A stretch of 49,706 bases of DNA from Pseudomonadota bacterium. GTDB lineage: Bacteria > Pseudomonadota > Alphaproteobacteria > SP197. Where the stretch lies: contig JAQCLG010000006.1 of NCBI GenBank assembly GCA_027592745.1, positions 1 to 49,706 on the forward strand, given 5' to 3'. A program made the position numbers and the translations under genes. The notes under the pieces were generated by a model. It saw only the letters and a list, made by a program, of their open reading frames with translations. It was not told the DNA's origin and did no database searches. Positions within the stretch are counted from its first letter, which is position 1. Every line of letters begins with the position of its first letter. Shown in pieces: positions 8,515-34,786 of the stretch.

Positions 8515-10152
8515 TCAGGCAGGCAAAGCCGCGTTCTGGCGGGGCTTGCCGAAACCGCCACCTCCGCATGTCTCGATGATGATGCGGTCGCCCCTTCCGA
8601 CCTGCAGGTTGGCGACGCCCGGTATGGCGTGTTCCGAGCCATCCTCGCCGCGCACGAGCGTCAGACGATAGGGTTTGCCGTCCTCGCCGCCCTGGATGCC
8701 GAAAGGCGGCACGACCATGCGGTCGACACAGGTGGTGAGCATCATCCGGAGTGCCAGGATCCTGTAGCTCATGGTGTAGCCGTCACCGCCCCGATGTTGT
8801 CCGTTCCCGCCCGAGCCGCTACGCAACTCCTGGCGCTCGACCTCGATGGCATGCAGGGCCTCGATCATCTCCACAGGCGTATTGCCGGTGTTGCCAAGGT
8901 GGACGCGGACGGCGGGGCAGCCGTCACGGTCGTGGCGTGCACCTTCGCCGCCGCCATGGACCTCGAAGAATGTCTTCCAGGTGCCGTCGTCGCAGGGTTC
9001 CGACAGGATGAGAACCGCGGTGGTTGTCGGTCCGCCGGCCGATATCCGCTCGGGCACCACGTGCTCCATCGCGCGGAAGATGGCATCGACGATGCGCTGC
9101 GAGGTTTCGTGGTTGCCTCCCACCACGGGCTTGTTCGGCCCGGGATCAAGCAGCGAACCCGGGCGGGTGATGATCCTGATCGGTCGAAGCGTGCCGCCGT
9201 TCTGCTGCATGTCGCGACCGCTCAGGAGCCGTGCGGCGTAGGCGACGGCCGAACCGACGACGAAGGGCGTGGTATTGTAGTAGTTCGTGACGATGTCGTC
9301 GGACTCGCTGAGGTCGAATTCGGCCTCGTCGCCCGCGATCGTGATTGCGACGCGGACTGCCGCCGGGCCACCGTCGGCACCGCCGAGGTCCATGTGGTCG
9401 ACGCCGCGATAGGTGCCGTCGGGGATGGCGCGAAGGCCCTCGCGCATCTCGATCTCGGAAAGGTCGCACAAGCGGGCAAGTGTAGCGGTCACCACTTCGG
9501 CGCCGTGCTCGTCACAGAGTTCCTGGACACGGCGTTCGCCGGCGCGGGTCGCCGCCATCTGCGCCATGATGTCGCCTTCGCGTTCGACGGGGCCGCGTAC
9601 GTTGGCGAGGATGAAATCGAGTTTCTCGCGGTCCACGCCGTCGCTCGTGAAGAGCCGGATCGGGGGGATGCGCAGCCCCTCCTGGATCGAATCGAAGGCC
9701 TGCGCGTAGTAGCTTCCGGGCCAGGCGCCGCCGATGTCGGGCCAGTGGGCCAGGTTCACCGCAAAGGCAACCAGCGTGCCGCGATGGAAGATCGGCCGGA
9801 TCAGTTTGACATCGGGCAAGTGGTTGCCGCCGATGTCGGGCAGATTGAGCAGCCAGGCATCGCCGGGCCGCAAGCGCTCGCGGGGCACGCATTTCAGGAA
9901 GTGCTTCACGGTGTAGGCCATGACGCCCAGATGCATGGGCAGATCGCGGCCTTGGGCGGCAAGTTCGCCGTCGGCATCGGTGATGGTCGACGACAGGTCG
10001 CCGCCCTCGCGCAGCACCGAGGAGCGTGCCGATCTGGTCATCACCAGCGACATTTCCTCCGCAGCAGCACTCAGGGCGTGGCGGATCACCTCGATCAGGA
10101 AGGGATCGATCTCGTGAGGCAGCGGCGGCGTTCCCGTTTGCAGGTCCTTCAT
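8515..10152 (-). CDS. hyuB: Hydantoinase B / 5-oxoprolinase B-type subunit
   Basis: A 545-residue HyuB-type subunit. Together with HyuA it hydrolyses a cyclic amide (hydantoin, N-methylhydantoin or 5-oxoproline type) using ATP, or carboxylates a ketone in the acetone-carboxylase relatives. Family marks are IDPFLIEVIRHALSAAAEEMS at the start, ARSSVLREGGDLSS, GDAWLLNLPDIGGNHLPDV, SGSGGNGQHRGGDG and the terminal IIIETCGGGGFGKP. The start at 10152 shares an ATGA overlap with hyuA and gives the family's usual N-terminus; the frame is open further upstream but that part lies inside hyuA. Which cyclic amide is used cannot be told; the surrounding N-methyl and guanidino-type enzymes make N-methylhydantoin plausible. 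Confidence 0.88.
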   Translation of the reverse strand: MKDLQTGTPPLPHEIDPFLIEVIRHALSAAAEEMSLVMTRSARSSVLREGGDLSSTITDADGELAAQGRDLPMHLGVMAYTVKHFLKCVPRERLRPGDAWLLNLPDIGGNHLPDVKLIRPIFHRGTLVAFAVNLAHWPDIGGAWPGSYYAQAFDSIQEGLRIPPIRLFTSDGVDREKLDFILANVRGPVEREGDIMAQMAATRAGERRVQELCDEHGAEVVTATLARLCDLSEIEMREGLRAIPDGTYRGVDHMDLGGADGGPAAVRVAITIAGDEAEFDLSESDDIVTNYYNTTPFVVGSAVAYAARLLSGRDMQQNGGTLRPIRIITRPGSLLDPGPNKPVVGGNHETSQRIVDAIFRAMEHVVPERISAGGPTTTAVLILSEPCDDGTWKTFFEVHGGGEGARHDRDGCPAVRVHLGNTGNTPVEMIEALHAIEVERQELRSGSGGNGQHRGGDGYTMSYRILALRMMLTTCVDRMVVPPFGIQGGEDGKPYRLTLVRGEDGSEHAIPGVANLQVGRGDRIIIETCGGGGFGKPRQNAALPA

Positions 10153-12179
10153 GGCGTCGCCTCGCTCATGATCAGGTTGCCGTAGTTGTCGCTTTCGATG
10201 CTCCAGCCCGGAGGTACAACCGTCGTTGACCAGGCATCGACGATGATCGCGGGGCCGACGACTTCCCGGCCCTCTGCAAGGTTCGGCCGGGAAAGGCATG
10301 GGGTACGGATCGGCCCGCTGGCGTCGAAGTGGCAGTCGCGATGGGCGACGGTGACGGTCGCATCGTCTTCCAGGCCGATCCCGAGGGTTCCCAGTGCGAT
10401 GCCCGAGGGTTGCGATGCCGTTACCCGCAGCCCTTCGAGGACCCAGGGTTCGTCCATGGCATAGCCGAAGATTTCGTGATGCCTTCGGTTGAAATCGGTC
10501 GCGAAACGGCCGTGGTCGAACGGCAGGTCGAAGGGAACGGCGATTGCTTCGCTCTGGCCGTCATAACGGGCGAGGCCGACGTACTCGATGGCGATGTCCT
10601 CGGTCGCGATGCCCTGGTCGCGCAGAGGGCGCGAGAGTTCTTCCTGCATTTCCGCCCGCGTCCGCTCCAGGGCATCGGCATCGAACGCCGCGGCGTGCAG
10701 CCTTGTCGTGCGCTGCTGCGTGTAGGACATGTCCGAGAGAAGGCAGCCATAGGCCGAAAAGGTGCTGGAGGCGACCGGCACGATGATGCGCCGGATGCCG
10801 ACCTCGCGGGCCAGGCCGGTCGCATGCATCGGACCGGCGCCGCCAAAGGCCAGAAGGGTACATTTGCGGCCGTCGATGCCGCGCTCCACCGTGACGCGGC
10901 GCAAGGCACGCGCCATGGCTGCGTTGGCGATCCTGTGGACGCCCAGGGCCGTCTCGGTGACGCTTTTCCCCAGGGCTTGCGCTATCGGGGCAAGCGATCG
11001 TTTCGCGCCCTCGATGTCGAGTGTGATGGTGCCGCCCAGCCTGGTATCGGGATCAAGCAGGCCGAGCACCGCGTTGGCATCGGTCACGGTCGGCAGGATT
11101 CCACCCATGCCGTAACATGCCGGCCCGGGCACGGCCCCGGCGCTGTCGGGGCCGACGGTCAGGCCGCCCGGAGTCAGCCGCACGATCGACCCACCGCCTG
11201 CGCCGATGGTCTCGACCGCCGCCATGGGCTGGCGGATCGGCCTGCCGCCAATCGACCGCCCGCTGCTCACTTCGATCTGGCCGTCGCGGACCAGGCAGAC
11301 GTCGGTCGTGGTGCCGCCCATGTCGAAGGTCAGCAAGGTTTCCTCGCCTCTGGCACGGGCGAGCGCCGCAGTTCCGGCGACCCCGGCCGCCGGTCCGGAC
11401 AGCGCCAGGATTAGGGGGCGCTCGCGGGCGACCTCCGGTGAGGCATACCCGCCAGCCGAGTGAAAGAGCTGGAAGCGGCCGTCGAGATCCGAGCCGGTCA
11501 GGATCTCGTCGATGTAGTCCACGGCGACGGGCATGGCGGCAGCGTTCAGCACGGTCGAGGAGGCACGCTCGAACTCGCGCGCCTCCGGATTGACACGATG
11601 GCTGAGCGAAACATGGGGCACCACTTCCCGCAGGGCAGCTGCCAGCGCGCGCTCGTGTTCCGGGTTGACATAGGCATGGAGCAGGCACACCGCGACCGAA
11701 TGCACGCCGGATCGACGCACATCGTCCACGGCTCGTGCGATCGCCTGTTCTTCCAGGGGGCGTGCGATCTCACCCCTGAAAGTCGTGCGCTCATCGACGC
11801 CGAACCGGCGCTCTGCGGGAACCAGGGGAGGACGCTTGGGCGGTACGTCCAGGCGATAGAGCTCGTGCCGCCGCAGGCGGCCTATCTCGATGCTGTCGCT
11901 GAAGCCTTGCGTCGCGAGCAGGGCCACCGGGGGCAGCTTGTCCTCGACGATCGCGTTGGTGACCCGCGTGGTGCCATGGATGACGTTCGCAATGTCCTCC
12001 AGGGCGAGGCCGACGGCGGCGATGCCGTCGTCGATGGCCGCCGCTGGCGCATCAGGACGGCTTGCGACCTTGGCCGTGCGCATTTCGCGGCCATTGATCG
12101 CCACGACATCGGTAAACGTACCGCCGATGTCGATGCCGACGAGCCATCCCGCAGCCCTGTCCTTCTTTCCTGTCGGCAT
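10149..12179 (-). CDS. hyuA: Hydantoinase A / 5-oxoprolinase A-type ATPase subunit
   Basis: A 676-residue HyuA-type subunit with the ASKHA-like phosphate-binding motifs WLVGIDIGGTFTDVV near the N-terminus and LLTFDMGGTTTDVCLV around residues 277-292. Other family marks are NVIHGTTRVTNAI, GAGGGSI, GPACYG and LAFGGAGPMHA. It provides the ATP-dependent phosphorylation half-reaction and pairs with HyuB, whose start codon overlaps its stop. No clear ribosome-binding site precedes the ATG at 12179. The pair is transcribed alone, without the permease or carbamoylase often next to hydantoinases. Confidence 0.88.
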   Translation of the reverse strand: MPTGKKDRAAGWLVGIDIGGTFTDVVAINGREMRTAKVASRPDAPAAAIDDGIAAVGLALEDIANVIHGTTRVTNAIVEDKLPPVALLATQGFSDSIEIGRLRRHELYRLDVPPKRPPLVPAERRFGVDERTTFRGEIARPLEEQAIARAVDDVRRSGVHSVAVCLLHAYVNPEHERALAAALREVVPHVSLSHRVNPEAREFERASSTVLNAAAMPVAVDYIDEILTGSDLDGRFQLFHSAGGYASPEVARERPLILALSGPAAGVAGTAALARARGEETLLTFDMGGTTTDVCLVRDGQIEVSSGRSIGGRPIRQPMAAVETIGAGGGSIVRLTPGGLTVGPDSAGAVPGPACYGMGGILPTVTDANAVLGLLDPDTRLGGTITLDIEGAKRSLAPIAQALGKSVTETALGVHRIANAAMARALRRVTVERGIDGRKCTLLAFGGAGPMHATGLAREVGIRRIIVPVASSTFSAYGCLLSDMSYTQQRTTRLHAAAFDADALERTRAEMQEELSRPLRDQGIATEDIAIEYVGLARYDGQSEAIAVPFDLPFDHGRFATDFNRRHHEIFGYAMDEPWVLEGLRVTASQPSGIALGTLGIGLEDDATVTVAHRDCHFDASGPIRTPCLSRPNLAEGREVVGPAIIVDAWSTTVVPPGWSIESDNYGNLIMSEATP

Positions 12180-13545: not shown

Positions 13546-14670
13546 ATGATTGACGCAAGGCTGCGTGACCTCCTGGACGCCTGGGCGACGGACCGCCGGC
13601 GCTTCCTCGGTCTTCTGGGCGCTGCGGGTGTCACTGCCGTACCGATGACGCGTGCCATGGCTCAGGACGACATGACGTATTTCACCAGGGCCGGCTACGA
13701 ACTCCCGGAGTTCTTTCAGGCCTACATCGACAAGCACGGCGCCCCGCCCAACATCACGTTCTACGGCGGTACCGATGAAGCCCTGGCGAAGATGCGCAGC
13801 GGTTTTCATGTCGATGTCGCCCATCCATTCCTGCAAGATGTCGGCACATGGGCAGACGCCGAGGCGATCCAGCCGATCGACACGTCTCGCCTCTCGAACT
13901 GGCCCGACCTTGCGCCGTCTCTCGCTGACGATCCCGGCACGAGGTCGGGTGGCCAGCAATTCTTCGCCCCCAACGACTGGGGCATCACCAGCGTGGCGTA
14001 CCGGTAGGATCTGGTCGATCCGGCCGATATTGCCGAGAATTCCTGGTCTCTCCTCATGAACGAGGCCTATGCCGGCCGCCTCTCCATGTACGATTCCAAC
14101 AACGCCTTGATCCAGTTTGCCGGACTCATGGCCGGTGTTGCTGATACGACCGCGCCGAGCGAGGCCGACCTTGCCGCGATGCGCGACGTCTGGGCACGCC
14201 AGCGCGACGTCCTGCGTCAGTACTTCGTGGTCGAGACCGATGCCGAAGCCATGTTGGCGAGCGGCGAGATCGTCGCCTGTTCCCTGTGGCCCGGACCTGT
14301 GAACAGGCTGATCGAGCAGGGTGTTCCCGTACGCCTGATGTCGAGCCCGAAGGAGGGAGCGTTCGTCTGGATGGCAGGACCCGTGATCTCCGCCTCGAGC
14401 GATACCCACCTTGATCGTGCCTATGACTTCATCGACGCTTGGCTGTCCCCGGAGGCCGGCCGATACCTGATCGAGACCTATGGCTACGGCCATTCGAACC
14501 TCAGGTCGTTCGCTCTTGCGAGCCCCGAATCCATTCGCAAGCTGGGCCTTGATCCTGACGGCGATGTCGCAGCGCAGATCGCAACCGTACAGCCCTATCC
14601 GACCCTGCCTCCTGCGGTCCTGCAGGCGTATGTCAACATTCTCGATGAGGTCCGGGCCGGCGCCGACTGA
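13546..14670 (+). pseudogene. SBP1: polyamine-type solute-binding protein, in-frame TAG
   Basis: A 374-codon PotD-like extracellular binding protein with a twin-arginine leader (DRRRFLGLLGAAG) and mature start MTYFTRAGYELPEFF. The frame runs through a TAG at 14005-14007, at VAYR-stop-DLVDP, where the paralogues have Thr (YRTD). Both sides remain coding and the C-terminal signature ETYGYGHSNL is kept. It differs from the other four in having HPF instead of the HPC motif (about residue 90) and FTRAGYE instead of FTWAGYE. No permease or ATPase is adjacent. It stands alone, divergent from TetR. A restart at 14056 would give only the C-terminal domain, without a signal. Confidence 0.82.
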
Positions 14671-14841: not shown

Positions 14842-16944
14842 CTAGGTCTTCGGTACGACCAGTGCATCGACGGCCAGGCAGCCGTCCGGGCCTGCGATGA
14901 CGGGATTGACGTCAATCTGGGCTACTTCCGGACCCAGTTCGCTGACAAGGATGGAGAACCGTGAGAGCGCATCGGCCAGGGCATCGATGTCGGCCGTGGG
15001 GCGTCCACGCACACCCTGCAGGAGGCGACGAATCCTGAGGCGCTGCAGCAGCCGCCGGGCCTCGGCGGCATCGAACGGCGGCAGGGCAAACACGGCGTCT
15101 TCCAGGACCTCGATCAGCAGGCCGCCGGCGCTCACCATCACCAGGGGACCGGTCAGGGGATCGTTGACCATGCCGAAGGCGACCTCGGTGCCGGACGGCG
15201 CCATCGTCGAGACCACGACGTCTGGGCCGAGCCGTGCCGCCATGTCGTCCCATGCCGCGGCGACCGCCGAACCATCATGCAGGCCCAGAGCCACGCCACC
15301 GACATCGGACTTGTGTTGGATGCCGGGCATGGCCGTCTTGAGAGCGACCGGGAATCCTGCCTTCTCCGCGGCAGCGATGGCCTGGTCTCTGCTCGACGCC
15401 CGGTGCGGTACCGCGGCCGCGATACCGAAGGCTGCGATGAGTTCCAGCGCAGTCGCCTCGTCGGACACGGCACCTTCGGCCAGCCTGCCGCGCCATCGCT
15501 GGATCACAGCGGCGGCGGGTGCTGCCGGCAAAACCATGGCCGGGCGCGCAAGGAAATCCCGGCGTGCCAGGGCATGCCTCACGGCCGTGATCGCAGGGCC
15601 GATGCCCTCGAGCAGAGGCACGCCCTCCTGCCTGAGGCGCCGCGCGTAATCCTGGTTCGGACCCATCGGAACCGCAGTCGCGAACATCAGCGGCTTGCCG
15701 CAAGCGGCGGCTATCTTCGGCGCAGCCTCGACGAACGGCCCACGATAGCCGTCGGTGTCCCGCAGGTCGGCGATCCAGAGGCCGATGGCCGTGTCCGGGT
15801 CCTCCATGAGCGCCGACATGCAGTCGCGAAAGATGGCGGCGTAGTCCTGGCCGGTACCCCAGGCATCGAGGGGGTTGGACGGCTCGAGACCATAGTCGAG
15901 CCGTTCGGCCAGCTTGGAGATGGTGGCATCCCCAATCCTGGCGAAAGGAACGCCGGCATCGTCTGCAAGATCGGCGAGATGTTCGCGCTCGCCGCCCGAA
16001 TCGGTGATGGCTGCGAGGCCGCCCGGGCCTGGCGACGGCGTCTGGGAAACGACCTGCAACGTCGCGATCATCTCGTCCATGTCGCGACAACGCAGCACGC
16101 TGGTGCGGTCGAACAGGGCACGGTAGGCTGCATCGTTCCCGGCGAGAGCCCCCGAATGGCTTTTCGCCATCTCGACGGCTGCCGCGGTACGCGCTGCCTT
16201 GACGGCGACCACCGGCACGCCCCTGGCGTTGGCCTTCTCCATCGCGACCATGAAGGCGCCGGGGTCGCGAATGGTTTCGAGAAACAGACCGATCGCCCTT
16301 GTCGATGGCAGTTCGAGGGCGAAGTCCATGTAGTCGGCGGCCGAGACGGCGATCTCCTGGCCGCTCGAGACGGTGAGGTTGAACCCGAGGCGGCCATCGT
16401 TCTGGATGAGGCCGGCATAGATCGAACCCGATTGGGCGATCATCGCCACCTCGCCCGCATCTTCCCTGGGATAGCCGCCCAGAGAGCTGCGGACCTTGTG
16501 GACGCGGTTGTAGAAACCCATGCCATTGCCGCCGCAGACCAGCAGGCCGGATTCCCTGGCGCGGGCCTTCAGCCGGTCGAGCAGGCGAGGTTGCGCATCG
16601 CCCTCGACGTAGCAACTGGCAAAGATCGAGACGGCTGGAATTCCGGCCGTGATCGCCGCGTCAACGGTCGCTTCCAGGCGTTGGTTCGGAACATTGAGGA
16701 TCGCGTGGTCGACGCCTTCCGGCAGTTCCGCGAGCGAGGCAAAGCAGGGCAGCCCCCGCACATCCTGGTAGTTCGGGTTGACCGGGTAGACGTGGCCTTC
16801 GAAGCCTGCAGACAGGCATGCGTCGAGGACGCCGCGGCCGAACGAACCCTCGCGGGGCGAAGCACCCACGATGGCGATCGAGCGGGGCGCAAGGAGGGGC
16901 TGCAGACGGTGCGAATGGCATGTGTCGGCATCGGATGCGCTCAA
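14842..16944 (-). CDS. NDP-forming acetate/acyl-CoA synthetase (fused alpha-beta)
   Basis: A 700-residue protein fusing the CoA-binding/ligase alpha part and an ATP-grasp beta part, which interconverts acyl-CoA plus NDP and phosphate with acid plus CoA and NTP. CoA-binding: SIAIVGASPREGSFGRGV. Active-site histidine region: KSHSGALAGND. ATP-grasp: FPVALKTAMPGIQHKSDVGGV and IDVNPVIAGPDG at the end. The best start is TTG at 16944, with GGGAG seven bases upstream; it gives the standard family length, whereas the frame stays open further without family similarity. It ends in TAG. It may activate or release an acid from the neighbouring catabolic modules; the substrate is unknown. Confidence 0.85.
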   Translation of the reverse strand: MSASDADTCHSHRLQPLLAPRSIAIVGASPREGSFGRGVLDACLSAGFEGHVYPVNPNYQDVRGLPCFASLAELPEGVDHAILNVPNQRLEATVDAAITAGIPAVSIFASCYVEGDAQPRLLDRLKARARESGLLVCGGNGMGFYNRVHKVRSSLGGYPREDAGEVAMIAQSGSIYAGLIQNDGRLGFNLTVSSGQEIAVSAADYMDFALELPSTRAIGLFLETIRDPGAFMVAMEKANARGVPVVAVKAARTAAAVEMAKSHSGALAGNDAAYRALFDRTSVLRCRDMDEMIATLQVVSQTPSPGPGGLAAITDSGGEREHLADLADDAGVPFARIGDATISKLAERLDYGLEPSNPLDAWGTGQDYAAIFRDCMSALMEDPDTAIGLWIADLRDTDGYRGPFVEAAPKIAAACGKPLMFATAVPMGPNQDYARRLRQEGVPLLEGIGPAITAVRHALARRDFLARPAMVLPAAPAAAVIQRWRGRLAEGAVSDEATALELIAAFGIAAAVPHRASSRDQAIAAAEKAGFPVALKTAMPGIQHKSDVGGVALGLHDGSAVAAAWDDMAARLGPDVVVSTMAPSGTEVAFGMVNDPLTGPLVMVSAGGLLIEVLEDAVFALPPFDAAEARRLLQRLRIRRLLQGVRGRPTADIDALADALSRFSILVSELGPEVAQIDVNPVIAGPDGCLAVDALVVPKT

Positions 16945-17245
16945 GGGAGGACTCCCGGATGGAGGTGAAGAAACAAGGTCAGGATCCTTGCGGTCGTTGC
17001 AGTAGGCCGCGCGTCGTTCTGCCGCCCTGCGGCCAGGCCGCTTCGTTGCGGGAAAAGAGCAGGGCTCGTCCGACTGCGACCCGGTTGGGACGGACCGTTG
17101 GTCGCGCCGGGAGGCACGATTCCCTCGGCCGGCTGGTCGTGGATCTGCGCGGCCGGAGGCTCTGCGGGAAGAAGGTTTCGTCACGTTCCCGAGGCTTCAC
17201 GGTTCCAACGGCCCTTGCAGAGGTGAGGCCAGACGAGCTAGTGGC
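16945..17245. other. Upstream part of a 379-bp divergent intergenic region
   Basis: Space between the acyl-CoA synthetase start and the AT-rich element before the Rieske operon. No gene recognised; it should contain the synthetase promoter on the minus strand. Confidence 0.35.
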
Positions 17246-17323: not shown

Positions 17324-18544
17324 ATGCCGCCCAGCGATGAACAACGCGATGCAGATATCCAGAACGCCGGGCCATCGGAGATGAACGCGCCAGTGCACGA
17401 GCGGAGCAGCTGCCCCTTTGACGCCGAGACGCTTGCGAGTTTCCAGGCGCCGATCGAGGAGGGCCGCGGCCTCCCCAACCGCTGCTACACCGACCCCGCC
17501 TGGCTGAAGCTGGAGAACGAGCGCCTGTTTGCACGCACCTGGATGCTGGCCGGTTTCCAGCATGACGTGCCGGGCAAGGGCGATGCCTGTCCCGTCGAAC
17601 TCGCCGGCATGCCGCTGCTGTTGCTGCGGGACCATGCGGGCGACATCCGTGTCTTCCACAACGTCTGTCGCCATCGCGGCGCGGTCATCGTGCCCGAGCG
17701 CTGTACGGGCCGGAAGGTGCTGACCTGCCCCTACCACGCCTGGGCGTACGGGCTCGACGGATCGCTGCGGACGCGACCGCACTTCTTCGGTGGGGATCGC
17801 CACGACACGAACCCGGGGCCGGACGCACCCGGCCTGCTACCCGTGCGCCATGCGGTCTGGAACGATCTGGTCTTTGTCGACCTTTCGGGCGAGGCGCCCG
17901 AGTTCGAGAGCCACTGGGAGCCCTTTGTCCGGCGCACGCGCGACTACGATTTCTCGGCCCTGCGCTATGCCACGACGCTGGAGTTCGACGTCAAGGGCAA
18001 CTGGAAGCTCATCCTCGAGAACTTCTTCGACGCCTACCATGTCCCGGCCGTCCACCCCAAGCTCGAGGAGTTCGCGCCGATCCACACGCGGATCGGCACG
18101 CAGACCGACGGCGTCTGGTTCCACAACACGAACCCGATCACCGAACCCCAGGAAGGGCGCGGCCTGGGCATGCCCTGTTATCCGGGGCTCGACGAGATCG
18201 GTCGCAGGACGGAGTGGTACTTCCATCTGTTCCCGACGACCCTGTTCGAGATCTGGCCGGACCAGATGGCGGTCTTCCAGCTCCATGCGCTGGAGCCCGG
18301 CCGCACCATCGAGAAGATCCACATGTATTTCATCGGCGAGGGCGCGACCGATCCGGCCTTCGAGAAGCAGCGCCAGGACGTCTACAGCATGTGGCAGGAG
18401 CTCAACACCGAGGACTTCCGGATCGTGGAGAACATGCAGCGGGCGCGTGTTTCACCCGGCTTCGACGGTGGCGTGCTGTCGCCCTTCTGGGACCCGGCGA
18501 CCCAGCATTTTGCCAGGCTCATGGCCGAGGCGATGACCGGATGA
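17324..18544 (+). CDS. Rieske non-haem iron oxygenase, alpha subunit type (copy 1)
   Basis: A 406-residue Rieske oxygenase. [2Fe-2S] ligands: C115-R-H117 in NVCRHRGA and C135-x2-H138 in TCPYHAWAYG. Mononuclear iron site: NFFDAYHVPAVHP with Asp236, His239 and His244. Overall size and motif spacing resemble glycine-betaine, carnitine and stachydrine demethylases rather than aromatic dioxygenases, so oxidative N-demethylation releasing formaldehyde is a reasonable guess. It needs a reductase that is not in the window. The start at 17324 lacks a strong ribosome site; ATG at 17381 is an alternative. First gene of a probable six-gene operon ending at 23697. Confidence 0.87.
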   Translation: MPPSDEQRDADIQNAGPSEMNAPVHERSSCPFDAETLASFQAPIEEGRGLPNRCYTDPAWLKLENERLFARTWMLAGFQHDVPGKGDACPVELAGMPLLLLRDHAGDIRVFHNVCRHRGAVIVPERCTGRKVLTCPYHAWAYGLDGSLRTRPHFFGGDRHDTNPGPDAPGLLPVRHAVWNDLVFVDLSGEAPEFESHWEPFVRRTRDYDFSALRYATTLEFDVKGNWKLILENFFDAYHVPAVHPKLEEFAPIHTRIGTQTDGVWFHNTNPITEPQEGRGLGMPCYPGLDEIGRRTEWYFHLFPTTLFEIWPDQMAVFQLHALEPGRTIEKIHMYFIGEGATDPAFEKQRQDVYSMWQELNTEDFRIVENMQRARVSPGFDGGVLSPFWDPATQHFARLMAEAMTG

Positions 18545-18584
18545 CTGCCCTATTGGCCGCTTCAATCGCAAGGGAGAACGCTGC

Positions 18585-19391
18585 ATGAGCGACGAGGTGC
18601 TCTACGAGGCAAGGGACAAGATTGCCACGATCACGATCAACCGTCCCTCGAAGTTCAACTCCATGAATCCGCCCTTCATGAAGGAACTGTCTGCTGCCTT
18701 TCGCCGTGCCGACCAGGACGGAAGCATTTCGGTCGTCATCCTGACCGCGGCGGGTGACCACTTCGGTGCGGGCTACGACCTGAAGTTCCCCTGGAGCGAG
18801 ACCTATGGGCGCGGCCCCATGGGCACGCGCAGGATGCTGAAGGACTGTGCAGAGTTCGAGTTTGGTCCCTGGGACTGCTCCAAGCCGGTGATCGCCATGG
18901 TGCGCGGCTACTGTCTGGCCGGTTCCTGCGAACTCGCCATGATGTGCTGTATCACCTACGCGGCCAAAAGCGCGATGTTCGGCGAACCGGAGATCCGCTT
19001 CTCGACGTCGCCGCCGGTGGTGGTCATGCCCTGGCTGGTCGGCCTCAAGCGCTCGCGCGAACTGCTCTACACCGGCGACATGATCGGCGCCGAGGAAGCC
19101 CGCCAGATGGGCATGATCAACAAGGTCTTCGACGACGACAAGCTCGAGGAGGAGACCCTGAAGTACGCCCGCCGTGCCGCGGCGATCTCGCTGGAGGGCC
19201 TGCAGACGACCAAGGCCTCGATCAACCGCGGCGCCGAGATCGCGGGCTTCCGCAGTGCGGTCGACTATGGCGTGGAAGTCGGCGCCATCCTCGATGCGGC
19301 CGAGACCGAGCAATACAGGCAGTTCGAGGCGGTAAGGGCCGAGAAGGGCCTTTCCGCGGCGATCCGCTGGCGCGAGGGCCAGTTCGAATAG
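18585..19391 (+). CDS. Enoyl-CoA hydratase/isomerase family protein
   Basis: A 268-residue crotonase. Oxyanion-hole segments are HFGAGYDLK and YCLAGSCELAM; the two acidic positions used by true hydratases are present (Glu in GSCELA and Glu in FGEPEIRF). It acts on an acyl-CoA, by hydration, isomerisation or C-C cleavage. It lies 40 bp after the Rieske gene and 96 bp before SBP2. Together with the Rieske protein it implies that the operon substrate has a carbon skeleton passing through a CoA ester. Ends in TAG. Confidence 0.88.
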   Translation: MSDEVLYEARDKIATITINRPSKFNSMNPPFMKELSAAFRRADQDGSISVVILTAAGDHFGAGYDLKFPWSETYGRGPMGTRRMLKDCAEFEFGPWDCSKPVIAMVRGYCLAGSCELAMMCCITYAAKSAMFGEPEIRFSTSPPVVVMPWLVGLKRSRELLYTGDMIGAEEARQMGMINKVFDDDKLEEETLKYARRAAAISLEGLQTTKASINRGAEIAGFRSAVDYGVEVGAILDAAETEQYRQFEAVRAEKGLSAAIRWREGQFE

Positions 19392-19487
19392 GGCCTCGCC
19401 AGTTCCCAGTCTGCAGTGCTTCCGGACCGGAGCCGATGAGAGGAAGTTCGACAGCCACGCATTTCGACAAGTCCAGGGAGAACGTCG

Positions 19488-20597
19488 ATGGACATACAGG
19501 AATTCGAGGATCGCAAGGCGGCCGGGACACTGAGCCGCCGGGATGTCGCCAAGGCCATGGCAGCCGCCGGTCTGGCTACGGTCGCCTTCCCGCTGGGCGC
19601 GGGCCGCGCCGCCGCCCAGGACGGGCAGGCACTTTCCTTCACCTAGGCGGGCTACGACATTCCCGAACTCTACCAGCACTACGCGGACAAGAACGGCGCC
19701 CCGCCCGACTACGCAATCTACGCCGATGAATACGAGGCCTTTCAGAAGGTCAAGCAGGGGTTCCAGGCCGACCTTGTGCACCCGTGCAGCCCCCTCGTGC
19801 CGCAGTGGCGGGATGCCGGGCTGATCCAGCCCATCGACACCAGCCGGCTGCAGAACTGGCCCGATGTCTTCCCCGCACTGACATCGCTGCCGGGCACCCA
19901 GGTCAATGGTGAGCAGTGGTTCGTGCCATTCGGCTGGGGCCGCACGTCCGTGACCAACCGGACCGACCTCGTCGACTGGGACGAGGAGGACTCCTATGGC
20001 CTGCTGTGGGATGAACGTTACGCTGGCCAGCTTGCCGTCTTCGATTCCGTCGACGAGACCGTGTTCACCGCTGCGATCTATGCCGGCATCGATCCGTGCA
20101 ACATGAGCGACGACGATCTCGACACGGTCATGGCCCTTCTCGAGAAGCAGAAGGCGCTGCTGCGCTTCTACGCCATCTCCCAGAGCGATATCACACAGGC
20201 CCTGGCCTCCGGCGAGGTGGTTGCCGCACTGACCTGGGACAGCGGGGCCGCAGAACTCAAGGCCCAGGGTATCCCCGTGCGCATGATGCTGCCCAAGGAG
20301 GGTGTGGAGACCTGGTGCTGCGGCATGGTGCTCACGAGCAACCCCCCGCATGAGGACAAGGCCTACGACCTGATCGATGCCATGTTGTCGCCAGAGAGCG
20401 GTGCCTTCGTGATCTCCGACTACGGCATGGGGCACTCCAACCGGGCCGCCTTCGACCGCATCAGCGACGAGAAACTCGACGAACTGCAGTTGCCCCGCAA
20501 CCCCACGGAACTGCTCGAGTCGGGAGTCATGTACTGCCTGTTCCGCAACAAGGATCAGGTCATCGAGCGCTTCGAGACCATGAAGGCCGGCTTCTGA
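19488..20597 (+). pseudogene. SBP2: polyamine-type solute-binding protein, TAG at Trp position
   Basis: A 369-codon PotD-like protein with twin-arginine leader (LSRRDVAKAMAAAGL) after MDIQEFEDRKAAG. The start has GGGAG nine bases upstream. Codon 53 (19644-19646) is TAG in LSFT-stop-AGYDIPEL; intact paralogues read FTWAGYE or FTWGGYD, so a single TGG-to-TAG change explains it. As it stands only the leader would be made. The rest is well kept: LVHPCSPLVPQW, IQPIDTSRL, NRTDLVDW, SDYGMGHSN. It lies inside the Rieske / DMFase operon, so it is the expected binding protein for that pathway's substrate. Confidence 0.85.
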
Positions 20598-20682
20598 GAA
20601 CCATCGCGCTTCCCCAGCGCAACCAGTGCAACGGCGGCTCAGCTTCGACAGCGGAGCCGCCGTCTGCGGGAGGGTCATTTCC

Positions 20683-21066
20683 GTGACGACCAGAACCATC
20701 ACGCGCCTGCTGCCCGACGGTGCCCCGGGTGGGCGCATGGCGCCTCTGGGCTATATCGACCCGGCGTCAGTATCCCAGGGCAGTGCCCGCGAGACCGGGC
20801 ACATCTTTTTCACCAACGAGACCGCCACGGTGAACGTCGGCGTCTGGGAATGTACGCCCTGCACGGAGGAGGTCAGGGACTATCCCTACGACCAGTGCTG
20901 CTTTGTCCTGGAAGGCTGCCTTGCCGTCACCGACGAAGCGGGCCACACCGAGACCTTCGGGCCGGGAGATGCCTTTGTCATTCCCCGCGGCTTCAATGGC
21001 TCGTGGCGGATGACGGAGCGCTATCGCAACTACTTCATCACCGTCGAACCGCAGCGCGAGAGTTGA
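20683..21066 (+). CDS. Small cupin (DUF861-type)
   Basis: A 127-residue single-domain cupin. The core reads GVWECTPCTEEVRDYPYDQCC, VLEGCLAVTDEAGHTETFGPGDAFVIPRG and ends FNGSWRMTERYRNYFITV, as in the ureidoglycine-aminohydrolase-like / DUF861 cupins. The preferred start is GTG at 20683 with GGGAGG nine bases upstream; the frame is open from an ATG at 20626 but without conserved residues. Histidine metal ligands of classical cupins are mostly absent, so catalysis is uncertain. It sits between SBP2 and the formamidase genes; a larger two-domain cupin converges from the other side. Confidence 0.75.
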   Translation: MTTRTITRLLPDGAPGGRMAPLGYIDPASVSQGSARETGHIFFTNETATVNVGVWECTPCTEEVRDYPYDQCCFVLEGCLAVTDEAGHTETFGPGDAFVIPRGFNGSWRMTERYRNYFITVEPQRES

Positions 21067-21141
21067 CGTGCGGTGCCTGCGCTCCCGCGCCTGGCGCCGG
21101 CAGGTCCGATGCGACGTGAACCCGAGCAACGTGAGAAGGCC

Positions 21142-21441
21142 ATGTACCAGATCGATCCGACACGCACCGACCTGATCGAGGAGTTCGATCGGGCGCCGGG
21201 CGGCCCCCACAGCGCGGAACTCAAGCAGGTCATCATGCGCCTCAGGACAGGACCCATGACGGAACGCTTCATCGTCGTCTGTACGCGGCGCGGACGCGAA
21301 TGGGCCGTGGGAAGGATGCCGACGGAGCGTGGCAAACCCGTCGCGTTGGTCGAGGGAGTGGTGTTCGATGACTACGACAACGCCGCGCGGCTGGTCTTCC
21401 GCCTGCGCTGGCAGGCCGCTACCGGTCAGGCCCTGGGCTGA
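21142..21441 (+). CDS. dmfA1: N,N-dimethylformamidase-like small (alpha) subunit
   Basis: A 99-residue protein directly before the large-subunit gene (21-bp gap), as in known dimethylformamidase operons. The stretch from SAELKQVIMRLRTGP to YDNAARLVFRLRWQ, with ERFIVVCTRRGREWAVGRM and a Gly-Lys-Pro turn, has the order of hydrophobic, charged and aromatic positions remembered for DmfA1. It is shorter than the roughly 130 residues of the Paracoccus/Alcaligenes small subunit and lacks most of their N-terminal extension. Start chosen at 21142 (AGAAGG upstream); an ATG at 21109 would add 11 residues. Identification rests partly on its neighbour. Confidence 0.7.
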   Translation: MYQIDPTRTDLIEEFDRAPGGPHSAELKQVIMRLRTGPMTERFIVVCTRRGREWAVGRMPTERGKPVALVEGVVFDDYDNAARLVFRLRWQAATGQALG

Positions 21442-21462
21442 GCGTTGGGCGAGGAAGGAACC

Positions 21463-23697
21463 ATGAAGAAGATCATCGCCTACACCAACGTCTGGACCAT
21501 CGCACCGGGAGACACGCTGGAGGTCAAGGTCAGCACCTACGGGGTGCCGCGCTACCGGGCCGATCTGGTGCGCGTGATCTGCGGCGACGACGATCCCGAC
21601 CGCGGCATCTATCGCGAGGAAGAGATCGTGGCGCCGTTTTCCGGCGACTACCCGGGGCGCACGCAGATCATGCCGGCCGGCTCCCATGTCTGCGTGCCCA
21701 GCAGCGGCGAGTTGAAACATCTGAAGAGCTTCACCGTGCAGGTCTGGGTCTTTCCGACGACGCCGGAGAAGGGCGAGCAGGGGCTCGTCAGCCACTGGGA
21801 CGAGGACGCGCAGAGAGGATTTGCCCTGGTTGTCGATGGCAGCGGTGCCGCCGCCCTGCGTCTTGGAGCAGGCGCCGGCAAGGTCGTCGTGGTCGCGTCC
21901 GGCAAGCCGCTTGCGTTGCGGCGCTGGCATCTGGTCGCGGCATCCTGGGATGCCGCGACCGGGGAACTTGCGGTCAGCCAGGGCTTCGCCGGATCACCGT
22001 TCGAAGCCGACAGCTCCTCCTCGGCCAGGGGCAAGGCGGCCTTTGTTGCCGCGGACGCCGGCGATGCGTCCTTGCTGATGGCGGCTTTGCCGTTAAGCCG
22101 GAGCGCCACGGGGCAGACGACGCGGTGCCATTTCAACGGCAAACTCGACCGGCCGCGTCTCACGGGCCGCGTCTTGTCAGCCGCCGAGATCGAGGCGCTG
22201 GCCTGGGACAACGCACCGCGCGAGCGCGAGCGTCTCCTGGTGGCGGGCTGGGACTTCTCGCGCGACATCGGCAGCACCCGGGTCGCCGACAGCAGCTTCA
22301 ACGGACTGCACGGCCACACGGTCAACCTGCCGTCGCGCGGCGTGAAGGGGTTCAACTGGAGCGGCCGGGAACAGAACTGGCGCCACGCGCCGCAGGAGTA
22401 CGGCGCGATCCACTTCCACGACGACGACCACTATGACGCCGGCTGGGATACCGACTTCACCTATGTCGTGCCCGATGGGCTCAAGAGCGGCGTTTATGCC
22501 GTGCGTCTGCGTGCCGACGATGACGAATGGTACGCCACCTTCTTCGTGCGTCCGCGACGTGGTACGGCCACCGCCAAGCTGGCGTTCCTTGCCTCGACGG
22601 TGACCTACATGGCCTATGCGAACTATCGCTGGCAGGTCCACGAGCGCTTCGCAGAGGCGGCGGAGGTCTTCTGGACCACGCTCGACCGGGGCGATGCCTT
22701 CCTGCAGGAACATCCCGAGTTCGGTCTTTCGACCTATGATCATCATTGGGACGGCAGCGGCGTGCGTTATGCATCGCGCCTGCGCCCGGTGATCAACATG
22801 GCGCCCAAGACGCCACTGTGGAGCTTCAACCCGGACACCCACATCCTGGGCTGGCTGGAGCACGCCGGCATCGACTACGACGTCATCACCGACGAGGACC
22901 TCCACCATGAGGGCGTCGCCCTGCTGGAGCGGTACGAGGCGGTCGTGACGGGCACCCACCCTGAGTACTACACGACACCGATGTGGGACGGATTGCGGGC
23001 CTACATCGCTCGTGGCGGCCGGCTCGCCTACCTGGGCGGCAACGGTTTCATCTGGCGCTGTGCGCTTTCGGATGAACTGCCCGGCGTCCTGGAGCTTCGT
23101 CGTGCCGAGGACGGCATCCGCTATCGCGACGAGGAGCCGGGCGAGTATTACCTGGAGTTCACCGGCGAATACGGCGGCCTCTGGCGCAGGCTGGGCATGG
23201 CGCCCCAGGCCCTGGTCGGGGTGGGTACGGTCGCCGTCGGGTTCGACAAGTCCGGCTGGTACCGCCGCACGCCGGAGAGCTTCGACCGCCGCGCGGCGTT
23301 CATCTTCGAGGGCATCGGTGACGACGAAATCCTCGGCGACTTCGGTATCCTGGGAGGAGGCGCCAGCGGTTCGGAGATCGATGCCGTCGATACCATGCTG
23401 GGGACGCCGCCACATACCCTGGTGGTGGCACGGTCGGAAGGTCATTCCGAAAACACCTATCTCGTGCCCGATGAGACAGGTTTCCACCACAGCGCCATGG
23501 AGGGCACGCACAACCCGAAGGTGCGGGCCGACATGACGTTCTTCGAGACGCCCGGCGGCGGCGCCGTGTTCTCCGTCGGTTCCATCGCATGGGGCGGCAG
23601 TCTTCCCCACGACGGTTACGAGAACAATGTCGCGCGCATCTCGGGGAACGTGCTGCGCCGGTTCCTCGATCCCAGGCCTTTTGCCATGCCCGAGTGA
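21463..23697 (+). CDS. dmfA2: N,N-dimethylformamidase-like large (beta) subunit
   Basis: A 744-residue protein matching the dimethylformamidase large subunit in length and layout: an N-terminal beta domain (IIAYTNVWTIAPGDTLEVKVS, then a concanavalin-like LamG segment around residues 75-260 with SFTVQVWVFPTT) and the C-terminal catalytic domain. The known enzyme has a mononuclear iron held by two tyrosines and a glutamate. The best equivalents here are Tyr382 (STVTYMAYANYRW), Tyr425 (LSTYDHHWDG) and Glu501 with His499 (GTHPEYYT), all conserved; the assignment is my alignment by eye. The enzyme hydrolyses DMF to dimethylamine and formate, but the operon context (Rieske, enoyl-CoA hydratase, SBP) suggests a natural amide of another kind. 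AAGGA ribosome site precedes the ATG. Confidence 0.85.
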   Translation: MKKIIAYTNVWTIAPGDTLEVKVSTYGVPRYRADLVRVICGDDDPDRGIYREEEIVAPFSGDYPGRTQIMPAGSHVCVPSSGELKHLKSFTVQVWVFPTTPEKGEQGLVSHWDEDAQRGFALVVDGSGAAALRLGAGAGKVVVVASGKPLALRRWHLVAASWDAATGELAVSQGFAGSPFEADSSSSARGKAAFVAADAGDASLLMAALPLSRSATGQTTRCHFNGKLDRPRLTGRVLSAAEIEALAWDNAPRERERLLVAGWDFSRDIGSTRVADSSFNGLHGHTVNLPSRGVKGFNWSGREQNWRHAPQEYGAIHFHDDDHYDAGWDTDFTYVVPDGLKSGVYAVRLRADDDEWYATFFVRPRRGTATAKLAFLASTVTYMAYANYRWQVHERFAEAAEVFWTTLDRGDAFLQEHPEFGLSTYDHHWDGSGVRYASRLRPVINMAPKTPLWSFNPDTHILGWLEHAGIDYDVITDEDLHHEGVALLERYEAVVTGTHPEYYTTPMWDGLRAYIARGGRLAYLGGNGFIWRCALSDELPGVLELRRAEDGIRYRDEEPGEYYLEFTGEYGGLWRRLGMAPQALVGVGTVAVGFDKSGWYRRTPESFDRRAAFIFEGIGDDEILGDFGILGGGASGSEIDAVDTMLGTPPHTLVVARSEGHSENTYLVPDETGFHHSAMEGTHNPKVRADMTFFETPGGGAVFSVGSIAWGGSLPHDGYENNVARISGNVLRRFLDPRPFAMPE

Positions 23698-23712
23698 TCG
23701 TGCTGTTGCCGG

Positions 23713-24480
23713 TCAGCCGGTGGACTGCGGCGCCACCTTCGGGTCGACGATGGCATAGAACTTCCGCAGCAGGCCGTCGCTGCGCCAACTGCACACCGTT
23801 CCCTGGGGCACGAAGAACGTATCGCCTGCCCTGAAGTGGTGCCGTGTGTCCTCCGCTTCGACGATCGTGACGTCGCCCTCCACGATGTGGGCGAACTCGT
23901 GGACGGAGAAGGGCTGCATGGCGCTCTCGAAGGCGGTGGTCTCCCACATGCCGACGGTCATGTTCCCGATGGCGTTGGTCGTCACCAGGTTGTCCCGCTG
24001 GCTGCCGCCGCCGATCGTCATTTCCTGTGGCACGAGCCCTGCCTCCAACGCTTGCGGGGTGAAGACGATGACACCGCCGTCGGCCGAGGCGATCCGGGGC
24101 GCCGGCACGCCCGGTGCCGAGTGGGTGATGAAGAACTTGCGCAGGAATCCCTCCTGCTTCCAGCTGATCGGGATAGCCTTGTGCACGAAGAAGCACTCGC
24201 CTTGCTCGACCGGCGTTTCCCGGCCCTGGCCATCGATCATCAGGACGCGGCCTTCGAGCACGACCATGAACTCGTCGTCGGGATAGGGCCCGAAGGCTTC
24301 CTGCATGTCGGTGGTGGTCCAGACCCCCACGGCAATGCCGAGCGCGGGATCCTGGTAGCAGACATGGATGTGCTGCTCCGGGAGTTCGGACTGGAAGTCA
24401 CGTGGGTCGAGCTCCATCTTTGCCAGACCTGCGCCTTCCGGGCCTTCACGTTCGAGCCTGATGATGCCTGTCGGGGTCAT
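23713..24480 (-). CDS. Two-domain cupin protein
   Basis: A 255-residue bicupin. Domain 1 (about residues 45-125): VGVWTTTDMQEAFGPYPDDEFMVVLEG..GECFFVHKAIPISWKQ. Domain 2 (about residues 160-250): VGMWETTAFESAMQPFSVHEFAHIVEG..GDTFFVPQGTVCSWRS. The duplication is plain from the repeated WETT / FMVVLEG / FFVP / SW pattern. It is a paralogue in style of the small cupin at 20683, and converges on the formamidase large subunit with 15 bp between. Start at 24480 has GGAG upstream. Divergent from the GFA gene. The enzymatic role is unknown; DUF861 cupins act in ureide or amide metabolism in some cases. Confidence 0.75.
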   Translation of the reverse strand: MTPTGIIRLEREGPEGAGLAKMELDPRDFQSELPEQHIHVCYQDPALGIAVGVWTTTDMQEAFGPYPDDEFMVVLEGRVLMIDGQGRETPVEQGECFFVHKAIPISWKQEGFLRKFFITHSAPGVPAPRIASADGGVIVFTPQALEAGLVPQEMTIGGGSQRDNLVTTNAIGNMTVGMWETTAFESAMQPFSVHEFAHIVEGDVTIVEAEDTRHHFRAGDTFFVPQGTVCSWRSDGLLRKFYAIVDPKVAPQSTG

Positions 24481-24574: not shown

Positions 24575-25027
24575 ATGGGCACGTTGACCGAGGACGCCAG
24601 CGGCGGGTGCATGTGCGGCGCGGTGCGTTACCGCGCGGAGGGCGCGCCGCTTTCGGTCATCTTCTGCCACTGCATGAGCTGCCGGCGCCATACCGGCGCC
24701 CCCGTGGTCGCGCTTGCGGGCTACCGGCGCGACCAGGTGGTCTATACGCAGGGCAAACCGAGAATCTTCAGTTCCTCTCCCGGCGTCGGTCGTGCCTTCT
24801 GCGGCGACTGCGGCACGCCGCTTACCTGGGAGGGCGACGGTGGTGAGATCGGACCCATGGTCGAGCTTCTCGTCAACACCTTCGACAAACCCGAAGACTT
24901 CGCGCCGGAGTGCCACATCCACCATCAGGAACGTCTGCCATGGCTCGAGATCCATGACACGTTGCCGCGCTACCGCGTCTGGCACGATGGCGAGGATGCG
25001 GCCTATCTTCACGGACCGGCCGATTGA
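24575..25027 (+). CDS. GFA / CENP-V family zinc protein
   Basis: A 150-residue protein of the glutathione-dependent formaldehyde-activating (Gfa) fold. Zinc ligands are visible as GGCMCGAVRY (about residues 10-19), CHCMSCRRHTGAPV (31-44) and FCGDCGTPLTW (76-86). Only some members act on formaldehyde and glutathione; others have unknown roles. Next to two N-demethylase-type Rieske oxygenases and a TMADH-type enzyme, a role with formaldehyde is reasonable. Strong ribosome site GGGAGAGG. Confidence 0.85.
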   Translation: MGTLTEDASGGCMCGAVRYRAEGAPLSVIFCHCMSCRRHTGAPVVALAGYRRDQVVYTQGKPRIFSSSPGVGRAFCGDCGTPLTWEGDGGEIGPMVELLVNTFDKPEDFAPECHIHHQERLPWLEIHDTLPRYRVWHDGEDAAYLHGPAD

Positions 25028-32701: not shown

Positions 32702-34786
32702 TCACGAGGCCGCTGCGGCCTCGATGACATGGCGCTCGCGGCGGAAGGGCACATCGCAGGGATCGACGGCCGTGCCGAGTTCCCTGGCGTAGCGGTGGCC
32801 CTCGTAGACGGCCGTCGCAATGATGCCGGGGGCGAGGCAGTCGCCGACCCTGCGCAGCGTGCCGATCGCAGCCCCGGGTGTCGCCTCGAGCACCTGCGCA
32901 AGCTCACGATACAACCCTTCTTCGGGCGTGCGTGAGGTCACCATGACAATGCCGTCGGCCTGCCGTTCGCTCTCTTGCCTCTGGACCGAGTTCCACAGCA
33001 AGGCCTGCCCAGCCTCCACGGCGATCAGTGTCGTGTTGGGCAGCATGGTCACGCCGGCTTCCGCGAGCCGGTCCTGATTGGCTCCGTGCTCCAGGGTGTG
33101 GACCATCCACGCGGCGATCCGGGGCAGGGGGGTGGCGAGGCTGACCTCGTAGCCTTCGGCGCTCAGCAGTTCGGCAATCACGCTGGCCATGTAGTAGTGG
33201 TCGTCGTCGAACAGCAGCACCCCGGGGCCCGGCGGACGGCGCCCGGCCAGGATGTCGTCGGGTGTGAGGACATGCGCGGCCCCGGTGCCCGGGACCGGTT
33301 CGCTCAGGTGGCGGCCATAGCCGTCGCGCCGCCAGGTGGCGCCGGTCGCGATCGCGACATGGTCGGCCCCCAGCTCGATGATCTGTGCCGCCGTCATGCG
33401 GCTGGAGCGGTAGACCTCGACATTGGTCATCTTCTGGATCTGGCCAATACGGTAGTCCCGCACGCGCGCCCATGCGGAAAGGCCGGGAAGTCTGCTTTCG
33501 CGGCTGACCCGCCCGCCGAGTTCCTCGCCGGCTTCGGCCAGCGTGACGCGGTAACCCCGCAGCCCGGCCACCCGCGCGGCCTCCAGCCCTGCGGGGCCGG
33601 CGCCCACGATCAGGACGTGCTCGTCCGCCTGGGCGGGGGCCGCAGTTTCGGGATGCCAGCCCTTGCGCCATTCCTCGCTGAAGGTCGGGTTCTGGGTGCA
33701 GCGCGCCGGGGCCGTCATCTGGGTCCAGCCGACGCAGACGTTGCAACCGATGCACTCGCGGATGTCCTCGATACGGCCTTCCTCGACCTTCTTCGGGAGA
33801 AACGGGTCGGCGATCGAGGGACGCGCCGCACCGATCAGGTCGACAATGCCGCGGCGGATCGCCGAGACCATGGCGTCCGGCGACGTATAGCGGCCGACCG
33901 TGGAGACCGGCTTGGTCGTGACCTGCTTCACGAAGGCGACGTATTCCTCCTGGTAACCTTCCGGCGCGAAGCGCGAGGTCTTGGAATCGTTGTCCCAGTC
34001 GGCAACGTTGACGTCCCACAGGTCCGGAAGTTCGGCGAGCATCTCGACCGCCTCCCGGCCCTCGTTCTGCCACTCCAGGCCGTCCGGCCCCATCATCTCG
34101 TCGACGGCAAAGCGCACCGTGACGGCGGTGGTGTCGCCGATCGCCTCCTTGGTCTCCTCCAGCAGCTCGCGGAACAGGCGCAGCCGGTTCTCCAGGCTGC
34201 CGCCGTATTCGTCTGTGCGCTGGTTGTGCCGGCGGGCGAGGAAGTGGCTGGGCACCGTGCCGTCGTGGCCGGCATAGACGATGACCATGTCGAAGCCGAT
34301 GTCGCGCGCGCGGATCGCGGCCTGCCGGTGGGCCCGCCGGTAGGTGCGTATGTCCTCCTTGTCCATGGCGCGGGCCTGGATCGGCGCCAGGCTCCAGTTC
34401 ATCGGCCGATTCATCGGGCCGATCGGGATCTCGCGGCTGTAGAGGTTTGGCGTGTCGTGGCCGTTGTGGACCAGTTCGATGCCGGCAAGGCTGCCGTGGC
34501 GGTGCACTTCCTCGCACATGCGTCCGAGATAAACCTCGTCGCCGGAATCCCACATGTTGGTCTCGGCATAGGGCGAGGCATCGCCGCTGGCCAGGAAGTC
34601 GCATTGCTCGGTGCAGACGATGCCCCAGCCGCCCTCGGCCTTGGTGCCGCGCATGGCGATCATGGCGTTGGGAAAGACCCGGCCCATGCCGTTGCAATGG
34701 GGCACCTGGTAGAAGCGGTTCGGCGCGGTCACCGGACCGATCTTCAGTGGTTCGAACAGGATGTCGTAGCGGGGGTCGCGCGCCAT
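32702..34786 (-). CDS. Dimethylamine/trimethylamine dehydrogenase-like flavoprotein
   Basis: A 694-residue old-yellow-enzyme/2,4-dienoyl-CoA-reductase-type protein very like TMADH from its first residues (MARDPRYDILFEPLKIGP). Cys31 in YQVPHCNG matches the cysteine that carries covalent 6-S-cysteinyl FMN; CIGCNVCVGWTQMTAPARC is the [4Fe-4S] site; VLIVGAGPAGLEAARV is the ADP-binding domain. Where TMADH has Tyr60 in its aromatic bowl this protein has Gln (Gln61 counting Met, in CTEQCDF), as reported for dimethylamine dehydrogenase. Trp residues at the two other bowl positions appear nearby (ADWDND, VGWTQ). Expected reaction: secondary or tertiary amine to demethylated amine plus formaldehyde, with electrons to an ETF. 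N-methylproline-type demethylases are alternatives. It follows the methyltransferase by 79 bp. Confidence 0.88.
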   Translation of the reverse strand: MARDPRYDILFEPLKIGPVTAPNRFYQVPHCNGMGRVFPNAMIAMRGTKAEGGWGIVCTEQCDFLASGDASPYAETNMWDSGDEVYLGRMCEEVHRHGSLAGIELVHNGHDTPNLYSREIPIGPMNRPMNWSLAPIQARAMDKEDIRTYRRAHRQAAIRARDIGFDMVIVYAGHDGTVPSHFLARRHNQRTDEYGGSLENRLRLFRELLEETKEAIGDTTAVTVRFAVDEMMGPDGLEWQNEGREAVEMLAELPDLWDVNVADWDNDSKTSRFAPEGYQEEYVAFVKQVTTKPVSTVGRYTSPDAMVSAIRRGIVDLIGAARPSIADPFLPKKVEEGRIEDIRECIGCNVCVGWTQMTAPARCTQNPTFSEEWRKGWHPETAAPAQADEHVLIVGAGPAGLEAARVAGLRGYRVTLAEAGEELGGRVSRESRLPGLSAWARVRDYRIGQIQKMTNVEVYRSSRMTAAQIIELGADHVAIATGATWRRDGYGRHLSEPVPGTGAAHVLTPDDILAGRRPPGPGVLLFDDDHYYMASVIAELLSAEGYEVSLATPLPRIAAWMVHTLEHGANQDRLAEAGVTMLPNTTLIAVEAGQALLWNSVQRQESERQADGIVMVTSRTPEEGLYRELAQVLEATPGAAIGTLRRVGDCLAPGIIATAVYEGHRYARELGTAVDPCDVPFRRERHVIEAAAAS

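Follow-up and report, generated by a model that had tools for sequence, protein, structure and literature searches.

The locus described here raises the question of what an enzyme built like N,N-dimethylformamidase (DMFase) does at the end of a gene run that begins with a Rieske oxygenase and a crotonase. The characterised DMFase converts N,N-dimethylformamide (DMF) to dimethylamine and formate; to our knowledge, it is known only for this industrial solvent, and we know of no explanation for the natural origin of its unusual iron site. The window, which is the whole stretch of 49,706 nucleotides analysed, comes from an alphaproteobacterium (SP197). The reading preferred here, with a probability of about 0.6, is that its DmfA1-DmfA2 pair is an Fe(III)-dependent amide hydrolase acting on a natural N-acylated amine or a related amide, not on DMF, that the amine is then oxidised, and that the Rieske and crotonase genes are separate from this function.

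Six genes are co-directional on the + strand. The first encodes a Rieske oxygenase alpha subunit, identified by sequence matches as the stachydrine-demethylase/carnitine-monooxygenase type (17324-18544), and is followed by a crotonase/enoyl-CoA hydratase in which both catalytic glutamates, Glu116 and Glu136, are present (18585-19391), a gene for a PotD-like solute-binding protein with an internal TAG codon (19488-20597), a single-domain cupin of Pfam PF05899 (about 20626-21066), dmfA1 (21142-21441) and dmfA2 (21463-23697), the successive gaps being 40, 99, about 94, 75 and 21 nt. The real start of the cupin probably lies 50-70 nt inside the open reading frame start at 20626. A two-cupin protein gene (23713 to about 24480, - strand) converges on dmfA2. 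These coordinates confirm the one-strand order and the converging bicupin described in an earlier note on this DNA; the two-cupin gene was not found at the other dmfA2 loci compared. A scan for sigma-70-like promoters, low-powered at such base composition, found none across the stretch. An ADP-forming acyl-CoA ligase gene (14842-17184, - strand), omitted by the earlier note, is divergent from the Rieske gene, and a GFA-domain (formaldehyde-activating-like) protein is encoded at 24575-25027 on the + strand. Elsewhere in the window are genes for an amine dehydrogenase of the histamine dehydrogenase/trimethylamine dehydrogenase family (32702-34786, - strand), an FAD amine oxidase (39551-40813, - strand), an M24 peptidase, a DUF1989 protein, a molybdopterin oxidoreductase, a second Rieske protein, further PotD-like binding proteins, a methyltransferase, a PhyH protein and an FAD-dependent (DAO) oxidoreductase. 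Hydantoinase A/B genes (8515-12179, - strand) are separated from DmfA2 by about 9 kb and are 88-90% identical to a pair directly adjoining DmfA2 in a genome of the same genus (L091), a difference in distance indicating that the wider island has been rearranged between the two.

DmfA2 (744 aa) matches the Paracoccus DMFase (PDB 6lvb) over its whole length in a PDB search (E=1e-159), and contains a LamG domain and a DMFA2_C domain (PF20254; E=2.5e-92, 310.6 bits against a Pfam cut-off of 27). Its second-best PDB match, also full-length, is the N-acetyl-(R)-beta-phenylalanine acylase (8huy; E=1e-143), so the fold is not confined to a single amide substrate. The small subunit homologue DmfA1 (99 aa) has no Pfam match by itself and no match in a single-sequence PDB search, while an iterated profile HMM seeded with it picks up DmfA1 of P. 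aminophilus (E=3e-22) and 66 other loci. Its gene adjoins dmfA2, as is expected for members of the DMFase superfamily, and most likely starts at ATG 21142 rather than GTG 21073, a ribosome-site-like sequence preceding the ATG. By these sequence comparisons, both proteins qualify as true homologues of the two DMFase subunits.

The iron ligands of the Paracoccus DMFase are Y399, Y440 and E521; its activity requires H519, N547 and E657, F693 narrows the pocket, and mutation of Y440, H519, E521, N547 or E657 kills the enzyme (PMC7686228). In an alignment of 58 homologues, the 2-Tyr-1-carboxylate ligands correspond to Tyr385, Tyr425 and Glu501 of the window DmfA2, and the catalytic residues to His499, Asn527 and Glu638, all six positions being invariant. 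Tyr425 and Glu501 had thus been named rightly in the earlier note, whereas the Tyr382 given there as the third ligand is equivalent to Paracoccus Tyr396, a neighbouring non-ligand residue, with Phe in its place in at least one of the homologues. The constriction residue is kept as Phe674 (DMFase Phe693); in the window clade this position is F in 17 and L in 3 of the 20 sequences, and outside the clade the residue varies. Retention of Phe674 may be compatible with a small, DMF-like amide as substrate, and the larger acyl part once proposed for the substrate is not supported, as this residue speaks, if anything, against a bulky acyl group.

By analogy with the mechanism of DMFase, a ferric iron bound by Tyr385, Tyr425 and Glu501 would act as a Lewis acid, polarising the amide carbonyl and activating a water molecule, the metal-bound water being the predicted nucleophile. 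Glu638 would serve as the base, Asn527 would hold the oxyanion and His499 would assist, and cleavage would yield a carboxylate and an amine. Judged from gene context, the substrate would be a natural N-acylated amine or a related amide other than DMF, and the freed amine may be oxidised by the histamine/trimethylamine-dehydrogenase-type or flavin amine oxidase enzymes of the region.

A quick maximum-likelihood tree places the window enzyme in its own clade of 20 sequences (SH-aLRT 100), which excludes both the acylase and the P. aminophilus DMFase, an enzyme of proven DMF use; the branches of the reference enzymes are long, so the deeper branching order is unsure. The window enzyme shares 41% identity with the P. 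aminophilus DMFase and, on phylogenetic grounds, is not regarded as its orthologue. A second dmfA1-dmfA2 locus of P. aminophilus, about 40% identical to the true DMFase, was not linked to DMF use (PMC4543880). The separate clade at this identity, together with the P. aminophilus precedent, makes a non-DMF substrate likely, which supports the view in the earlier note that a DMFase-type site sits here on a probable non-DMFase.

The same comparisons bear on whether the pair could nevertheless be a genuine DMFase or N-methylformamide hydrolase, releasing formate and methylamines from formamides, with the methylamines oxidised by the trimethylamine/histamine-dehydrogenase-like enzyme and formaldehyde handled by the GFA-domain protein. 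Such a pathway would agree with the retention of every catalytic residue and of the constriction phenylalanine, and with the presence of the dehydrogenase and GFA-domain genes in the window. It is nonetheless unlikely, as the enzyme is divergent and a P. aminophilus homologue at 40% has no link to DMF use, as it would be hard for a single xenobiotic to account for the 8-12 divergent copies present in many relatives, and as the best match of the dehydrogenase is histamine, not dimethylamine, dehydrogenase.

Compared in detail, the window enzyme resembles the Paracoccus DMFase (6lvb; pAMI2 DmfA1-DmfA2) in its two subunits, in its LamG/pentraxin-like and DMFA2_C domains and in its full set of iron ligands, catalytic residues and constriction Phe, but its DmfA1 is without the long N-terminal extension, no LuxR-type dmfR adjoins it, and its genes are associated with those for a cupin and for PotD-like binding proteins. 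It shares the two-gene organisation of the pAMI5 dmfA1-dmfA2 pair of P. aminophilus, each being about 40% identical to the true DMFase, but is only about 40% identical to the pAMI5 DmfA2. The dmfA1A2 pair of Rhodobacteraceae bacterium M382 (L062) lies directly downstream of a spermidine/putrescine-type ABC transporter and binding protein; the M382 enzyme is 42% identical to the window enzyme and not orthologous to it in the tree, and its locus differs in containing, besides a complete transporter, glutamine-synthetase-like and aldehyde dehydrogenase genes. Other annotated plasmid homologues adjoin class III aminotransferase and ABC genes or, in Burkholderia, amino-acid transporter and D-amino-acid dehydrogenase genes. 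With such varied contexts, including the spermidine/putrescine-type transporter, the family looks like a group of amide hydrolases with differing substrates. In the window clade, the DmfA2 of a record titled Gemmatimonadetes (L013) falls among the alphaproteobacterial sequences, and this record may be mislabelled or mis-binned.

These contexts are also relevant to an N-acyl amino acid acylase, similar to N-acetyl-(R)-beta-phenylalanine acylase or to the Burkholderia homologues near amino-acid transporter and D-amino acid dehydrogenase genes. The acylase 8huy belongs to the same large-subunit family, with equivalent Tyr/His/Glu motifs aligned in the window DmfA2, and its rank as second-best PDB match and the plasmid homologues beside amino-acid ABC and D-amino-acid dehydrogenase genes, or beside a class III aminotransferase, speak for such an activity. 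It is distinctly unlikely, however, since the window clade is separate from the acylase references in the tree, where 8huy groups, on long branches, with another paralogue of the source genome (L005), and since the gene context differs and the linked binding proteins are PotD-like and not of the amino-acid type.

Whether the six genes form a conserved unit was examined in 15 other genomes of the source bacterial family, in which the best DmfA2, Rieske and crotonase orthologues were located. The regions compared comprise 24 around dmfA2 and 12 around Rieske or crotonase orthologues; as several end at contig ends and some share recent ancestry, the figures are counts and not tests. In none of the 15 genomes does a Rieske or crotonase orthologue stand beside DmfA, as they are found on separate contigs or far apart; in the near-complete genome G006, the DmfA2, Rieske and crotonase orthologues are at 1.417, 1.562 and 0.503 Mb, respectively, of one contig. 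The crotonase orthologue is paired with a CoA ligase in all four crotonase regions fetched, the Rieske orthologues adjoin choline-sulfatase-like and GMC choline-dehydrogenase-like genes in three regions (L098, L101 and L103), and none of the 12 Rieske or crotonase regions contains a dmfA, cupin or PotD-like gene. A cupin occurs in 12 and a PotD-like binding-protein gene in 9 of the 24 dmfA2 regions, and the family's best cupin matches mostly adjoin DmfA2 directly. The conserved unit is therefore cupin-DmfA1-DmfA2, often with a PotD-like binding protein, while orthologue positions suggest that the Rieske and crotonase genes are members of other modules and chance neighbours here.

It had been proposed that the six genes from Rieske to DmfA2 make up a single operon by which a natural N-alkyl amide is degraded, where the Rieske enzyme would carry out N-dealkylation and the acyl part would be oxidised in a CoA-dependent manner. 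This is very unlikely, even though the genes are co-directional with short gaps, the Rieske enzyme is of an N-demethylating type, a CoA ligase gene adjoins it and the crotonase retains both catalytic glutamates. The earlier note took a gene order found in this genome alone as a reason to drop the pathway, and among the genomes searched the order is indeed unique to the source genome. The Rieske gene has orthologues away from DmfA in 13 relatives and the crotonase gene in 12, so that a role of the two enzymes as steps of a DmfA pathway is not supported. The source genome contains dozens of Rieske candidates (44 scored), which makes a Rieske neighbour unremarkable, the binding-protein gene carries a stop, and an electron-transfer partner for the Rieske protein was not seen within the run. 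Some Rieske gene is present in 7 of the 24 dmfA2 regions, but this count was set aside as evidence of a linkage to DmfA2, as the identities are low (about 26-40%), the orthologue of the window Rieske has another location and Rieske candidates number in the dozens in these genomes. The window crotonase is 87% identical to a copy on contig C26 of the source genome, and the window Rieske scores 131.8 bits against glycine betaine monooxygenase GbcA, below the NCBIfam equivalog cut-off of 670.

The in-frame TAG of the binding-protein gene (19644-19646) occupies a position where most homologues have Trp (FTWAGY), so the gene as assembled is not intact. Apart from this codon, the gene shows purifying selection relative to the copy of an SP197 relative (dN 0.14, dS 0.94), which itself contains a different TAG and a frameshift. 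A recent loss, strain variation or an assembly error are possible explanations. Pyrrolysine or other TAG recoding was rejected, as no PylS above the cut-off was found in the source genome and 16 relatives, and TAG terminates the crotonase gene. In the source genome, five PotD-like binding-protein genes have a frame that is good apart from one in-frame stop each, and a sixth is frameshifted; in the window these are 13546-14670 (TAG 14005-14007), 19488-20597 and 35838-37060 (frameshift), and the other loci are L127, L128 and L129. Unlike these genes, none of the 10 DmfA2 copies of the source genome contains an internal stop.

The proposed oxidation of the freed amine is in line with the neighbourhood of the window clade. 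The dehydrogenase at 32702-34786 matches histamine dehydrogenase (PDB 3k30) with E=1e-227 and lies 9 kb from dmfA2, and the FAD amine oxidase, homologues of which are near dmfA2 in 4 of the 24 regions, lies about 16 kb from it. Of 19 window-clade loci, 6 have a gene of the histamine/trimethylamine dehydrogenase family no more than 10 kb from DmfA2, where about 1.1 would be expected (P 0.001), a P value that is too strong since these loci share ancestry, so that the enrichment is weaker than it suggests. Two to three tandem DmfA2 copies adjoin groESL in G000 contig C32 (L115, L122 and L116), G006 (L123 and L124) and G015 (L125 and L126), followed in most by a GFA-like gene, a family-5 binding protein, an amine dehydrogenase, a CoA ligase and another DmfA2, in an order largely kept across the three genomes. 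The three-copy C32 cluster was rejected as a pathway model, as its synteny is partly carried by the neighbouring his and groESL genes, and only its amine-dehydrogenase link is used here.

DMFA2 matches number about 4-12 per genome in 14 of the 15 same-family relatives, some of them being fragments at contig ends. With at most 6 candidates scored per genome, DMFA2 occurs in 52 of 289 genomes drawn from the class, mostly in 1-2 copies, and a few other lineages have at least 5-6 copies. Each of G000 and its relatives G001-G015 also has 3-15 genes of the histamine/trimethylamine-dehydrogenase family and 4-32 genes for PotD-like binding proteins, numbers which, beside the DMFA2 expansion, point to an amine-specialised lineage.

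The window enzyme belongs to a known, poorly explored family, is well conserved and probably acts on a substrate other than DMF. It is tentatively suggested, at somewhat less than even odds, that its clade represents a type of DMFase-fold enzyme that has a cupin as partner, acts on a new natural substrate and serves the catabolism of N-acylated amines or polyamines, in a lineage with up to a dozen such enzymes per genome. The numerous database entries that carry the name N,N-dimethylformamidase at an identity of about 40% are probably annotated wrongly, and a conserved clade with a complete active site, a different gene context and about 4-12 copies per genome provides a concrete place to seek the natural substrates of these enzymes.
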